Shown here: in pieces, positions 56,624-62,069 of the stretch
Position numbering within the stretch: position 1 is the stretch's first letter
Layout: every line of letters starts with the position of its first letter
NCBI RefSeq assembly: GCF_900450765.1
Contig: NZ_UGGU01000003.1
Coordinates: 1,564,854-1,628,853, forward strand
Direction of reading: 5' to 3'
Length of the DNA stretch: 64,000 nt
Source: Fusobacterium necrogenes
GTDB lineage: Bacteria; Fusobacteriota; Fusobacteriia; Fusobacteriales; Fusobacteriaceae
Notes under the pieces: generated by a model
Database searches by the model: none
Told to the model about the DNA's origin: nothing
Seen by the model: the letters and a program-made list of their open reading frames with translations, nothing else
Position numbers and translations under genes: made by a program

Positions 56624-57119
56624 TTTTTACCTCTTGAATTATTTTTCTCTCATACAAAAGATGCTCTGCTCCCATATATTCTTTAATACCCTTATATACA
56701 AAAGCATTTTTCATAAAAATCTTTTTAGATATTTCATTTTCTTCAAGAATATAGGCACAAACTTTTTTTAATTGAGGTCTTTCAAACTTTAACTCTTCAA
56801 TACTGTAAAAGATAACAGATTCAGAATATCTCTTTCCTCGTATTTTACTTACTAAATAGATACTTATTGCAACTTTAGATTTCCCTATAATTTCAAATCT
56901 TACTGTTCCTAAAAATTCTCTTCCTAAACTTTCTATTGTATAAAATAAATAGCTAGGAGAATTTATAACAAATAAATACCATCTTCTATGAGCTTCCCAC
57001 TGCTCGATTTGCTTATTTGGGAAATATTTTCTTACATAATCTAAATGAATATATTTATAAATATTAGGAATATCCCTCTCTTCCATCTTTCTCAATATTA
57101 TATCCGTCAAAAAAATCAC
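56577..57119 (-). CDS. GNAT-family acetyltransferase
   Basis: 180 residues. LRKMEERDIPNIYKYI at the start and the LVSKIRGKRYSESVI acetyl-CoA loop indicate a RimJ/RimL-like GNAT, although the loop is less canonical (RGKRYS instead of RGxGxG). Substrate unknown. Starts 7 bases after tyrS and runs 47 bases into nth. Confidence 0.72.
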   Translation of the reverse strand: MIFLTDIILRKMEERDIPNIYKYIHLDYVRKYFPNKQIEQWEAHRRWYLFVINSPSYLFYTIESLGREFLGTVRFEIIGKSKVAISIYLVSKIRGKRYSESVIFYSIEELKFERPQLKKVCAYILEENEISKKIFMKNAFVYKGIKEYMGAEHLLYERKIIQEVKNEEKRKSKKYFRDIE

Positions 57120-57126
57120 CTTTTAA

Positions 57127-58350
57127 CTACTTCAAAATTACTCTATATATTTTTTTCTTTCCTATTTTTAATACAAAATTTCCATCTTTAAATAAATTTT
57201 CTGTAATCTTCATAGCAAAATCTGTGACTTTATTGTCTGCTACTGTTAAGCCATTCTGAGTTACAAGTTTTCTTCCTTCCCCTTTAGACTTTATAAATTT
57301 ATGCTCAACTAATAAATCTAAAAGCTCTGTTCCTAATTTTTCACTTGGAAAATCTACTGATGGCACATTACTCATATCTCCACCACCAAAAGCTCCCTCT
57401 GCTCCTTGTTGAGCTTTTAAAGCTTCCTCTTCTCCATGTATTAATTTTGTAACTTCATAAGCTAATATTTTCTTGGCTTGGTTAATTTTTGCTCCTTCTA
57501 ATGCTCCTAATCTTCTTACTTCATCCATTGGTAAGAATGTTAATAGTGCTAGACATTTTTCCACATCAGCATCTGCAACATTTCTCCAATATTGATAGAA
57601 TTCATATGGAGTAGTTTTAGCTGCATCTAGCCATAATGCTCCTTTTGCAGTTTTTCCCATTTTCTTACCTTCACTATTTGTAAGAAGTGTACATGTCATA
57701 GCAAAAGCTTGTTTTTGTTCTTTCTTTCTTATTAATTCTACTCCTGCTATCATATTTGACCATTGGTCATCTCCACCTAATTGCATAGTACATCCATGTT
57801 TTTTATTTAAAACTAAGAAGTCATATCCTTGCATAAGCATATAGTTGAACTCTAAGAAAGATAACCCTGCTTCCATTCTTTGTTTAAAACACTCAGCTGC
57901 AAGCATTCTATTTACAGAGAAATGTGCTCCAATATCTCTAATAAAATCAACATAGTTTAGTCCTAATAACCAATCAGCATTGTTTTCTAATATTGCTTTT
58001 CCTTCACTAAAATCTATAAATTTTTCCATTTGTTTTTTGATACAAGCTACATTGTGAGCTATTGTTTCCTTAGTCATCATCTGTCTCATATCAGTTCTTC
58101 CACTAGGGTCTCCTATCATAGCAGTTCCCCCACCAACTAAAGCAATTGGTCTGTGTCCAAATTTTTGCATATGTGCCATAAACATCATAGCTATAAAGTG
58201 TCCTACATGCAAGCTATCTGCTGTAGGATCAAATCCTATATAAAAAGTTATTTTTTCTTTTCTTAAAGCTTCTCTTATTTCATCTTCGTGTGTGAATTGT
58301 TTAATATATCCACGCTCTACTAATACATCTACTACACTCTCATTATTCAT
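57127..58350 (-). CDS. tyrS: Tyrosyl-tRNA synthetase
   Basis: 407 residues. Class I signatures HVGHF (HIGH) and [11 protein letters not shown] (KMSKS), tyrosine-site [24 protein letters not shown] region, and a C-terminal S4 RNA-binding domain. No T-box is visible in the 73-base gap from the metS-like gene; a weak -35/-10 pair (TTTAAA, 17 bases, TAAAAT) sits there. Followed by a GNAT gene and nth. Confidence 0.97.
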
Positions 58351-58423
58351 TTCATTTTCCTCTCTTAGTTTTATAAATATTCCCTAATATTTTATCATAA
58401 ATACTGATGTTTTTAAAGTTTTT

Positions 58424-58534
58424 TTAATTCTCTTCATTTTTTTCTTTTTTCAATGTTATGCCTATTGATATCAGAAGTCCTCCCCAAACTATTGTACATC
58501 CAAATATCATCATTATGACTGCACCTATATTCAT
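58424..58534 (-). CDS. MetS-like small subunit of an NSS transporter
   Basis: 36 residues: one membrane helix (VIMMIFGCTIVWGGLLISIG) and a charged tail ending EKNEEN. It resembles MetS, the small subunit needed by the Corynebacterium methionine/alanine NSS transporter MetP. AGGAGG lies before ATG 58534, and the gene starts 8 bases after the NSS transporter stop. The small length and position leave little doubt that it is translated and works with the carrier. Confidence 0.87.
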   Translation of the reverse strand: MNIGAVIMMIFGCTIVWGGLLISIGITLKKEKNEEN

Positions 58535-58542
58535 AATTCCTC

Positions 58543-60039
58543 CTAATCTCTATCAGATTTATTCTCCCACTTTTTTTTATAAAAAATTGTTGCAGAAACC
58601 ACCATTATTAGAATTGTTCCCCAACCAAAGACTAAACTTCCAACAGTTATACTCCTTATTCCTTTTATTAAATTAGTTATAACGGTTATTCCTAAAAGAA
58701 CAGGTGTTACATACTTTAATAAGATATCAAACCATTTTCCAACTCCAAAATCTGAATATTCATTTACTTCTATTCTTATTTTATCAATTCCATAATATTT
58801 ACACACTAAGATAGTTTCTATTAATCCAAGAGTTGCTATTATATAATTACCAACATGAGAATCTACAATATCCAAAATATAATTAAATCCTGCATAAGTT
58901 GAGAATGCTGCACTCCCTACTAATCCTAAAAAAGAAATTATTCCAACTAGTCTTTCTCTCGTCATTTTAAATTTATCTAATGCTCCAGTTGTAAAAGCTT
59001 CTAACATAGATATACTAGATGACAATCCAGCTATAAATAAGCAAAAGAAAAATACAAAACCTATTATTCCTTGTAAAAAAATATTAGTTGTTATTGTTGA
59101 TATAGCTATAGGAAAAGCTATAAATGCTATTCCAGCTCCATTTCCAAAAGAGTTAAAATTCACTCCAATATTATTAACTAAATATCCTAATGTTGAAAAT
59201 ACTGTTATTCCAGAAATTATATCAAATGATGCATTAGCTAATACAGTTATAAAAGAACTATTTACTATATCCCATTTTTTAGGAATATATGAACCATATG
59301 CTATCATAACTCCTACTGCTAATGTAGTTGAAAAAAATACTTGTGCATAAGCTGCTACCCAAATACTTGGATTTAATATAGCTTCAAAATTAGGAGTAAA
59401 TAGTGCATTAAGACCTACTACCGAGCCCTTTAATCTTAAAGAATTTATCATAAATACTAACATTAATCCCATAAGTAAAGGTGTAAATAATTTTGAACTT
59501 TTCTCTATTCCTGCAGATATGCCTTTTTTTACAATTATCCAGTTACCAAACCAAACTACAAGTATGAAACATAGCATATATTTACTTATTCCCGCTTTAA
59601 AATCAAATGGTCCACTGGCACTACCAGCTATCATTCCCATTAGCTTTCCAGGATCTGACATCCAATTCACAATACCAAAAGCATGTCCTAAAGACCACAC
59701 CATAAATACTACTGCCACTGAAATTATTGTACAATAAAACATCATTACCACTATTGGTATCATTACTTGTAACCATCCAAACCACTCAAAATTTTTCCCC
59801 AATGTTCTAAATGCTTTTGTAGATCCTCCTCTTACTTTTTTCCCAAGCTGATATTCTAATATCATAAGAGGTACTCCACAAGTAAAAAGTGCTACTATAT
59901 ATGGTAAAAAAAATGCTCCTCCACCATTTTTATATGCTTGAAATGGAAATCTCCATAAATTTCCTAAACCTATTGCTGCTCCTACAGCTGCATAAATAAA
60001 CCCTTTTCTACTATTCCATAACTCTCTAGTTTCTTCCAT
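58543..60039 (-). CDS. Neurotransmitter:sodium symporter (NSS/SNF family) amino-acid carrier
   Basis: 498 residues, about twelve helices. TM1 region AAVGAAIGLGNLWRFPF is the family signature with the unwound Na+/substrate site. Related bacterial proteins take up tryptophan (TnaT), leucine, tyrosine or methionine/alanine with Na+. It is preceded by a 34-residue leader peptide rich in Trp and Tyr and a terminator (60056-60092), suggesting an aromatic amino-acid carrier; a MetS-like subunit follows. Start ATG after GGGAGAGG. Confidence 0.9.
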   Translation of the reverse strand: MEETRELWNSRKGFIYAAVGAAIGLGNLWRFPFQAYKNGGGAFFLPYIVALFTCGVPLMILEYQLGKKVRGGSTKAFRTLGKNFEWFGWLQVMIPIVVMMFYCTIISVAVVFMVWSLGHAFGIVNWMSDPGKLMGMIAGSASGPFDFKAGISKYMLCFILVVWFGNWIIVKKGISAGIEKSSKLFTPLLMGLMLVFMINSLRLKGSVVGLNALFTPNFEAILNPSIWVAAYAQVFFSTTLAVGVMIAYGSYIPKKWDIVNSSFITVLANASFDIISGITVFSTLGYLVNNIGVNFNSFGNGAGIAFIAFPIAISTITTNIFLQGIIGFVFFFCLFIAGLSSSISMLEAFTTGALDKFKMTRERLVGIISFLGLVGSAAFSTYAGFNYILDIVDSHVGNYIIATLGLIETILVCKYYGIDKIRIEVNEYSDFGVGKWFDILLKYVTPVLLGITVITNLIKGIRSITVGSLVFGWGTILIMVVSATIFYKKKWENKSDRD

Positions 60040-60055
60040 ATTATCCTCTCCCTTG

Positions 60056-60092
60056 TTAAAAATAAAAAAAGCAGTCTGTTAGACTGCTTTTA
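60056..60092 (-). terminator. Terminator in the NSS transporter leader (attenuator)
   Basis: On the minus strand AAAAGCAGTCT-aac-AGACTGCTTTT, an 11-base-pair stem, runs into TTTTTTTATTTTT. It lies between the leader peptide and the transporter start, so unless overridden it stops transcription before the gene. Confidence 0.85.
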
Positions 60093-60122
60093 AAAAACTA
60101 TTAATTCTAATATCTCCTTTAT

Positions 60123-60140
60123 AAAGCAATAACTTGCTTT
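60123..60140 (-). other. Competing hairpin in the NSS leader
   Basis: AAAGCAA-gtta-TTGCTTT on the minus strand. Its 3' arm TTGCTTT can also pair with the 5' arm AAAAGCA of the terminator stem, giving a classical mutually exclusive pairing. Confidence 0.6.
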
Positions 60141-60154
60141 TTCAATTTTTAAAG

Positions 60155-60259
60155 TTACATAGATAGAGATATGTTATCAATAGACCAAAGCCAATATCTA
60201 ACACTTTTTAACTTATTATCCAATTTTTCTATGTAGCTCCACCAATATTGTACTTTCAT
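60155..60259 (-). CDS. Trp/Tyr-rich leader peptide of the NSS transporter
   Basis: 34 residues from ATG 60259, after AAAGGAGG. Four tryptophans and three tyrosines (QYWWSY near residue 6; RYWLW near residue 23) in such a short peptide is far above chance. It ends 14 bases before a hairpin that competes with a terminator. This is the layout of an amino-acid attenuation leader, or of a TnaC-like sensor of free tryptophan. Which signal turns the gene on is not clear from sequence. The longer frame back to 60355 crosses the promoter and is rejected. Confidence 0.8.
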   Translation of the reverse strand: MKVQYWWSYIEKLDNKLKSVRYWLWSIDNISLSM

Positions 60260-60293
60260 ATTGATAACCTCCTTTTTCCATAATCTTAGAATA

Positions 60294-60322
60294 AGTATAT
60301 TATAATTTTGTACAATTGTCAA
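60294..60322 (-). promoter_or_regulatory. Promoter of the leader-NSS transporter operon
   Basis: TTGACA (60322-60317), 17 bases, TATACT (60299-60294) on the minus strand. Confidence 0.85.
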
Positions 60323-60667
60323 TTGATTTTTCTTCTTTTTTTCCACTAGAATCAATATTTCAATATATACTCCTGCACCCTTTCCTAAAAAAGAGTATCG
60401 CTGTTAAAGAAAACTCTAAAGAATCCCTCTTATTATCTTCAAGTTATTTATTCAAATAATTTTAAATAACTCAAATATATCTTATTATAAAGATCAACAT
60501 AATATAATAATACATATCTATTCTTTTCCACTTTAAAATTACTATTTTTCTCATTTTTATAATCAAATTTAAATATATCTATCTTAGTGTATAACCTAGA
60601 TACTTAAAAAATTAGATAACTAACCTATAGTATAAAATTTTTTCATTTTTACTCAAAAAAAAAACTC
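60323..60667. other. Intergenic stretch, no gene seen
   Basis: About 345 AT-rich bases between the divergent NSS and MATE transcription units. Only a half-match to the MATE operator, TATAGTATA at 60626-60634, stands out. Confidence 0.5.
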
Positions 60668-60699
60668 TTGACTATATAGTATACTATACACCTTATACT
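60668..60699 (+). promoter_or_regulatory. MATE promoter with 20-base spacer and internal palindrome
   Basis: TTGACT (60668-60673) and TATACT (60694-60699) are 20 bases apart; the perfect palindrome TATAGTATACTATA (60675-60688) sits in the spacer. Over-long spacers with a central dyad are typical of MerR-family activated promoters. Confidence 0.6.
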
Positions 60700-60739
60700 C
60701 TATATTAGCAAATATATTTTAGGAGGTTTTTTATTTAAA

Positions 60740-62069
60740 ATGAGTAAAATTTCTTTAGGACATGAAAATACTAAAAAAATTTTTTTCAAGCTTGCTCTTC
60801 CAAGTGTTTTAGGATCTATACAGATGATGGTAGATGGTTTTTTTATAGCTAATACTGTAGGGGCTAATGGGCTTGCTGCTATAAATCTTTCTATGCCTGT
60901 TATTAATCTCTATATGAGTATAGCTATGATGATATGTGCAGGAGGAGCTGTATATACATCCATTGAATTAGGAAAAGGAAATAAAAAAAGAGCGAATGAA
61001 GTTTTTTCTTTTACTTTTTTTGTCTATATTGCTATTCTGAGAACACTAAGTATATTAGGAACAATTTTTATAGATAAAATAATCTATTTTTTAGGTGCTA
61101 GTAAAGAGTTAATTCCTTTAGTAAAACCATATCTTATAACTCTTTTAGTTTTAAATCTTCTATTTAATTTCCCTATATTCTCTGAAATGTTTGTCAAAAT
61201 TGGTGGACTTCCTAATTTTGTTTTTATCAGTGCTCTTATTTGTATAAGTGGAAATATATTAGGAGATTATATTTTAATAGTTCAAATGAATTTAGGAGTA
61301 TTTGGTGCTACATTAGCAACTGGAGTAGCTAATGGAACAGCTGGAGTTATTTTATTTACACGTTTTCTTAAAAATAGATGTGCTCTAACATTCACTTCTC
61401 CTAAAGGTAATAGATATCTATTAGGAAAAATTCTTTATAATGGAAGTTCTAAAATGTTAACTATTGTTTCAGCTGCTATTACTACTTATATTTTTAATTT
61501 GCTTCTTATGAAATATATAGGACCCCTTGGTGTATCAGCTCTAACAATCGTATTTTATGTTAATAATATCTTAAATATATGCCTTTATGGTTTAAATCAA
61601 GCACTACAACCTTTAGTTTCTTTTAATTTGGGAGCTAGAGAATTTGATAAAATAAAAGAAACGGTTAAAATAACTTTAATTTCTGGAGCTACTTTAGGAT
61701 TAATATGTTTTATTACTATGAAACTTAAAAGTGACTTTATTGTTAAACTTTTCTCTAAAGGAAATTCTGACTTAGAACTTTTAACTTTTGATGTTTTAAA
61801 TATTGTTACTTTTCAATATATAATATCTTTTATTAATGTTACTGCTATAGGTTTTCTAACTGCTTTAGAAAAACCATTTGAATCTATGTTAGTTTCATTT
61901 TTTAGATCTCTTGTATTTACAGTATCATATTTATTTATTCTTCCTATTTTTTGGAAATTCTGGGCTTTGGTTATCTATGCCAATAGGAGAACTATCTTGT
62001 ATATTTATAAGTATCCCTCTTATGTATTACTCATTCAATAAATCTAAAAAAAAATACTCTATTGAATAA
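60740..62069 (+). pseudogene. MATE-family multidrug transporter, frameshifted near the C-terminus
   Basis: The first ~410 codons encode a MATE carrier: MSKISLGHENTKKIFFKLALP start, VDGFFIANTVGANGLAAINL and the repeat-half GLNQALQPLVSFNLGAR. Near 61965 the frame shifts. The zero frame ends with 24 unrelated residues at 62041, while the +1 frame continues LWLSMPIGELSCIFISIPLM to a stop at 62069, the expected last MATE helix (W..xP..E pattern). This fits loss of two bases, for example in a G run after TGG at 61961. The product may be truncated but possibly partly active. Export of drugs or toxic compounds by Na+ or H+ exchange is the family role. Confidence 0.8.

Follow-up and report, generated by a model that had tools for sequence, protein, structure and literature searches.

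A candidate tryptophan attenuator in front of a neurotransmitter:sodium symporter gene in Fusobacterium

In Fusobacterium necrogenes, a gene for a sodium symporter of the neurotransmitter:sodium symporter (NSS) family is preceded by a short open reading frame (ORF) and an intrinsic terminator, which raises the question of what this leader might sense and how it might control the transporter. The locus lies in a 64,000-nt stretch of DNA (the window; its genome is called G000 here), and all coordinates are window positions, on the minus strand unless stated. The parts of the locus are as follows.

60294..60322, minus strand: sigma-70-type promoter TTGACA-17-TATACT, 11 of 12 consensus matches
60268..60272, minus strand: Shine-Dalgarno sequence (SD) GGAGG of the leader ORF, invariant in 11/11 relatives
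60259..60268, minus strand: 5' arm of helix P1, GUUAUCAAUA, the spacer between SD and AUG, complementary to 60173-60182
60155..60259, minus strand: predicted leader ORF, 34 codons, MKVQYWWSYIEKLDNKLKSVRYWLWSIDNISLSM, with 4 Trp and 3 Tyr
60244..60250, minus strand: region 1 of G000, CAAUAUU, which can pair with the region 2 flank GAUAUUG and overlaps the tandem Trp codons by one base
60239..60244, minus strand: tandem Trp codons 6 and 7, in frame in 11/11 relatives
60187..60203, minus strand: region 2, the putative antiterminator strand, UGUUAGAU plus GCUUU, codons 19-25
60173..60182, minus strand: 3' arm of P1, UAUUGAUAAC, codons 26-29
60077..60090, minus strand: region 4, the 5' arm and loop of the terminator, predicted to pair with region 2
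60067..60091, minus strand: intrinsic terminator hairpin, 11 bp, followed by a U run
58543..60039, minus strand: NSS (SNF) sodium symporter, 498 aa, the putative regulated gene (PF00209, E 5.9e-84; NF037979)
58424..58534, minus strand: MetS-like NSS small subunit, 36 aa (NF033493)
57127..58350, minus strand: tyrS, tyrosine-tRNA ligase, the downstream neighbour (TIGR00234)

An earlier sequence-only reading of the window had proposed the promoter, the 34-residue ORF with its four Trp, three Tyr and strong ribosome binding site, and the 11-bp terminator upstream of the transporter start at 60039, and all three were borne out. The promoter ranked first among the 30 promoter-like sites of a 4-kb scan, a number that showed no overall excess over the 25.7 expected, and the terminator was the sole one in its 4-kb scan, where shuffles expect 0.8. 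Folding of the G000 leader alone gave weak evidence (z -1.93; 6 of 200 shuffles equally good). An Rfam scan of 57000-61500 at E<=5 returned five chance-level matches, none of them meaningful, and the T-box covariance model RF00230 had no match at the locus. A MatE-family transporter gene (60740-62041, plus strand) diverges from the leader.

Occurrence and conservation of the leader

The element was found in 11 of 98 Fusobacteriota genomes (model R2, E<=0.01). One divergent member, L130 in G030, which belongs to another genus, was found with the sequence-only model R1, and model R2, built with P1 and the helix between regions 1 and 2 (1:2), finds exactly the same 11 members; since ten members trained R1 and all eleven trained R2, L130 is the sole independent find by a model. 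All 11 relatives carry the promoter (10-12 of 12 matches, a 17-nt spacer, 17-27 nt upstream of the SD), in-frame tandem Trp codons and, between leader and gene, the terminator (-9.6 to -12.9 kcal/mol). The element precedes three unrelated transport genes, encoding an NSS symporter (six members), a substrate-binding protein of the SBP_bac_5 family (four) and one of PF04392 (one, in G030). Among the 12 genomes of the genus that were searched, G000-G005 have the leader upstream of an orthologous NSS transporter, 84-92% identical to the window's in G001-G005. In G007-G010 a homologous leader (the four b leaders) stands before a substrate-binding protein gene, assigned to SBP_bac_5 by Pfam in G010, to whose product the proteins of G007-G009 are 96-97% identical. 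The stretch upstream of the NSS orthologues of G008-G010 has no such leader, no close NSS orthologue was found in G007, and G006 (71% complete) and G011 showed neither the leader nor a close NSS orthologue.

A wider contig search gave 13 stretches, of which L091 (Fusobacterium mortiferum An814) was read and has the same element as G003; the other 12 are titled as other phyla. The leader-peptide matches L029, L032, L033, L034, L036 and L037 and the model matches L131-L134 showed no leader layout on reading and were discarded, the read set being drawn without L030, L031, L035 and the remaining weak R1 matches (E above 0.01). Seven other places with the SD motif (L051-L053, L064-L067) are, by appearance, other start sites or unrelated sequence. 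In a scan upstream of NSS genes 24 loci were read, two of which (L071 and L088) have a coding upstream stretch, and three further matches came without a locus. The scan upstream of PF04392 genes (30 loci) showed one leader of this kind, as well as a weak two-Trp ORF without a terminator in L174; its offsets near contig ends are uncorrected values. Paralogues of the SBP_bac_5 gene are many, and their upstream stretches were covered by the model searches.

The putative leader ORFs are 34-42 codons long, are open behind the SD in 11/11 and differ in length by whole codons. Each combines a short ORF and its SD with tandem Trp codons, as an attenuator of this kind would, with two such codons in G000-G003 and G030 and three in the other leaders. 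The distance from start to Trp codons varies by whole codons among the leaders, and the tandem Trp codons lie 34-35 nt from region 2 and 28-29 codons from the stop in 11/11. Most codon differences in the pairs compared (within the four b leaders, within G000-G003, and between G004 and G001) change the amino acid, which means that the peptide itself is not conserved. G005 retains the region 2 bases although compensating indels shift them to another reading frame. Conservation covers both an open frame carrying Trp codons and particular RNA segments. The leader of the NSS transporter is real. Leader and terminator are kept in the 11 genomes with the tandem Trp codons in frame, which supports the leader-attenuator layout of the sequence-only reading, and the comparison of homologous loci that it had proposed, which found leader ORF and Trp codons kept in all 11, did not refute an attenuator.

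Alternative pairings in the transcript

Two conserved complementarities had been overlooked in the sequence-only reading. The 5' arm and loop of the terminator (region 4) are complementary to leader codons 19-25, so that region 2 lies within the leader ORF, and the SD-AUG spacer is complementary to codons 26-29, which gives P1. The aligned leader stretch with the greatest complementarity to the region 4 of its own row is region 2. In a column-shuffle test on 7 of 10 rows (near-identical ones omitted), performed before L130 was found, 2 of 200 shuffles equalled this complementarity on the mean and 0 of 200 were as good in the worst row. When the leaders were taken singly, region 2 did not reach significance in the duplex test: region 4 had region 2 as its best partner in five of ten leaders (64 to 172 of 1000 shuffles equal), and the Trp-codon block in the other five (14 to 145 of 1000 equal). 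Across the alignment, 98.9% of cells are paired in helix 2:4 vs at most 44.4% when the strands are slid, and 99.3% in P1 plus 1:2 vs at most 50.7%.

In 7/11 leaders region 1 is the motif UCUAA[C/U] near the start codon (codons 2-5), which copies region 4 and could form 7 to 10 bp with region 2; three of the b leaders have a second, overlapping helix of 8 bp that is at least as long. G000-G003 are without this copy, and other bases ahead of their Trp codons can form 7-8 bp with the region 2 flank. L130 has A-U in place of a G-C pair, and the change is present in regions 1, 2 and 4 alike, so that 1:2 and 2:4 are both kept. Helices 2:4 and 1:2 are possible in 11/11 leaders, 2:4 being incompatible with the terminator and 1:2 with 2:4, with one shared compensatory change and modest statistics. 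Because this covariation is one event, shuffling is a weak control: P1 plus 1:2 is matched by 74 of 500 shuffles and 2:4 by 35 of 500. The P1 core of 8 bp is invariant in 11/11, and an invariant helix is no evidence either way on pairing; the longest P1 helix is 8-12 bp and exceeds the core in 6/11 leaders; that of L130 is 10 bp long and its end is changed. Two terminator pairs vary in both strands, a number reached by 143 of 500 shuffles, and the terminator's share of paired cells was reached by 0 of 500. Eleven related sequences are few, which is a weak point of the comparison.

Proposed tryptophan attenuation and its rivals

The explanation that we consider likely, on comparative grounds, is a ribosome-mediated tryptophan attenuator that is ON when charged tRNA-Trp is scarce. 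When there is no translation, or when the ribosome has already passed, P1 and 1:2 would form, region 4 would be free and the terminator would end transcription. When charged tRNA-Trp is short, a ribosome would wait at the tandem Trp codons and region 1 would be covered, directly in the short leaders and perhaps via a ribosome queued at the start codon in the long ones. The freed region 2 could then pair with region 4 before the 3' arm of the terminator is made, allowing read-through into the transporter gene. Trp uptake would be switched on by need, since the genus appears to be a Trp auxotroph: the trpE domain PF04715 was seen in 14 of 14 controls and in none of the 12 genomes of the genus, suggesting that the genus is probably unable to convert chorismate to Trp. 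An importer that Trp shortage turns on would suit a genus without trpE.

The effect of ribosome position was modelled by masking the ribosome footprint and folding the transcript to the terminator loop, with values given as expected 2:4 pairs at equilibrium, not kinetics. With a ribosome at the tandem Trp codons, 6.3 to 11.6 pairs are predicted in G000-G003 and G005, apart from 1.0 pairs when the shortest footprint is placed at the third Trp codon of G005, and 0.0 to 7.4 in G004, varying with footprint and codon. A lone Trp-stalled ribosome in the four b leaders and G030 gave 0 to 2.8 predicted pairs, with one value of 7.7; together with a start-codon ribosome, the Trp stall gave 9.1 to 10.6 in the b leaders, 5.6 to 12.1 in G004 and 2.9 to 6.9 in G030. 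A stop-codon ribosome is predicted to leave 1.4 to 9.4 pairs in G000-G003, 0 in G004, at most 2.9 in G005, 1.8 in the b leaders and 0.5 in G030. Ribosomes at both stop and start codons would leave 2.9 to 9.8 pairs in G000-G003, 2.7 to 12.1 in G004 and the b leaders, and about 0 in G005 and G030, and with no ribosome the models gave 10.3 pairs in G000, 5.2 in G005 and at most 0.5 elsewhere. A weak point of the tryptophan reading is that, in the models of the six long leaders (G004, the four b leaders and G030), one stalled ribosome is not dependably enough to free region 2; a queued start-codon ribosome would free it in all six, and with a stop-codon ribosome likewise in five of the six (not G030). 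The 2:4 pairing predicted for G000, and in part for G005, when no ribosome is present also counts against this reading.

The sequence-only reading had preferred a TnaC-like mechanism, in which read-through would be induced by a ribosome that free tryptophan arrests at the stop codon of the leader, and this preference rested on a hairpin, AAAGCAA/TTGCTTT, downstream of the ORF. The hairpin exists (60140-60134 / 60129-60123), but it is present in one of the 11 leaders, that of G000, and absent from the other ten relatives, and it was rejected as the antiterminator. The regular spacing of tandem Trp and stop codons (28-29 codons, 11/11) is what a nascent-chain sensor would need, and in the models a stop-codon ribosome leaves 2:4 paired in G000 and, at some footprints, in G001-G003. 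However, the peptide tails differ (SLSM, FLSM, YTSV, FIFIM) and none of the 11 leaders has the C-terminal Pro next to the stop that characterizes TnaC. The Trp residues sit 28 residues from the end, far deeper than in TnaC, where the depth is 12 residues. In seven leaders (G004, G005, the four b leaders and G030) the stop-stalled models predict no more than 2.9 pairs of 2:4, which argues against TnaC-like sensing there; in G000-G003, the window's genome among them, the models favour neither mechanism. Induction by plenty is also implausible because the genus is without trpE, where an importer so induced would make little sense. We regard the TnaC-like mechanism as quite improbable.

A metabolite-binding riboswitch or a protein-bound leader, in which the ORF is incidental, would suit the strong base conservation, SD-AUG spacer included, the region 2 of G005 kept in another frame, and the mostly nonsynonymous codon changes in the pairs compared. 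We give it a small chance, as the ORF is open behind the SD in 11/11 with whole-codon length differences and in-frame tandem TGG in all, there was no meaningful Rfam match at E<=5, and the conserved helices are few and mutually exclusive, unlike an aptamer core. The locus itself could suggest a tyrosine or general aromatic attenuator: Tyr codons are present at positions 5, 9 and 22 of the G000 leader, and tyrS lies downstream in G000 and, on visual inspection of the protein start, in G001-G004. Tyt1 is a tyrosine transporter of the NSS family in Fusobacterium, and together with the tyrS neighbour it points to Tyr as a possible substrate, against the tryptophan reading. Yet no Tyr codon is shared at one aligned place by all 11 leaders (G004 has one, and G030 has codons 2 and 30 only), and the element also precedes genes without tyrS in the stretch read, which makes a tyrosine signal very unlikely. 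Of the "aromatic" leader peptide of the sequence-only reading the Trp part stands and the Tyr part does not; it should read tryptophan, because tandem TGG is found in 11/11 and no Tyr codon is fixed.

The tryptophan attenuator might also read a queue of ribosomes rather than a single stall, as a cassette exchanged among NSS, SBP_bac_5 and PF04392 genes, a proposal about which we are doubtful. In the six long leaders the tandem Trp codons are at codons 11-15, roughly the distance that would let one further ribosome occupy the start codon behind the stalled one. This second ribosome would cover region 1 (codons 4-5, a copy of the terminator 5' arm).

Other leaders and known systems

Several further leaders were met in Fusobacteriota. 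The pattern WWW occurred at 14 places in 13 of the 98 genomes; on reading, L109-L111 and L113 are Trp leaders and L115 is not, and nine other places were set aside on the matched string alone (TTGGTGGTGG in another frame, or a Gly-rich start). In L109, L110 and L111 (from ~1500 on the leader strand; G040-G042), M(M/I)RFTWWWKNSISDQSNKLSGFAALS and a terminator-like hairpin stand before a trpE-like gene, as called by Pfam on L109, and this leader is a probable trp operon attenuator in a genus of Fusobacteriaceae other than Fusobacterium. L113 (from ~1500 on the reverse strand; G049) has the leader MTIRFTWWWQSRLHDLSNRQVNQVLPLFAVN and a terminator-like hairpin before a PF04392 substrate-binding protein (Pfam). 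In L086 and L087 (G033 and G030), short leaders MKKLNNNYQKNTSLVNTFSWCWC and MKKLNNNYKKNISSENTFSWCWC of the form MKKLNNNY...SWCWC were found ~180-260 nt before an NSS gene, followed by a strong terminator; these NSS genes are 71-72% identical to the window's, and the leaders are possibly a second, Trp/Cys type. Both the WWW leaders and the MKKLNNNY...SWCWC leaders look independent in sequence of the window's element. In L073 and L076, ~50-330 nt before an NSS gene, there is a conserved inverted repeat (CTACTGGC/GCCAGTAG in L076) with two terminator-like hairpins, and an SD-preceded short ORF overlaps a Tyr-rich stretch in another frame. T-boxes (RF00230, E<=0.001) were found in 20 of 98 Fusobacteriota genomes, two of them above the Rfam cut-off (L116 in G006, L117 in G033) and weaker in 18 more genomes; none was found in the 11 leader genomes at this threshold, with stricter filters and 20 candidates per genome, by which weak matches may be lost.

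Attenuation by a Trp leader peptide, as in E. coli trpL, is an old principle. Like trpL, the Fusobacterium element has a short leader ORF with tandem Trp codons in its early part, and predicted pairings, some ahead of an intrinsic terminator and some with it, that exclude one another. Unlike trpL, it precedes transport genes, not trp biosynthesis; its region 2 is part of the ORF, 34-35 nt beyond the Trp codons; in seven leaders region 1 comes ahead of these codons as a copy of the terminator 5' arm; and P1 would join the SD spacer to codons near the ORF end. With TnaC it shares a Trp-containing leader peptide before Trp-related genes, and it differs in having an intrinsic terminator and tandem Trp codons, with no conserved tail and no Pro before the stop.

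Three tandem Trp codons are described for the trp leader of C. glutamicum (PMC11995493). The uORFC motifs, such as uORFC-8-2 before cysS, are presented in PMC8632094 as leader-ORF attenuators inferred by comparison; the Fusobacterium element resembles uORFC-8-2 as a comparison-inferred leader-ORF attenuator with tandem regulatory codons, and differs from it in amino acid, phylum and structure. NSS transporters of the B. cereus group are controlled by T-boxes for Trp, Phe and Leu (PMC2494555). These T-boxes also represent amino-acid-responsive transcription attenuation of the same transporter family, whereas the Fusobacterium element would use a peptide and a ribosome, not direct tRNA binding.

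Among open-licence PMC papers, no report was found of this leader, of a Fusobacterium Trp attenuator or of a leader-peptide attenuator of an NSS gene; if the tryptophan reading is true, this would be the first Trp leader-peptide attenuator found, within that search, for a neurotransmitter:sodium symporter and for Fusobacterium. The leader-bearing bacteria seem unable to make tryptophan, and one leader before three unrelated transport genes offers a handle on the substrates that these carry. Compared with the known systems, the long-leader layout seems to want a second ribosome, and the phylum, the genes, the antiterminator strand within the ORF and a region 1 that copies the terminator arm are new, while the principle is the same.
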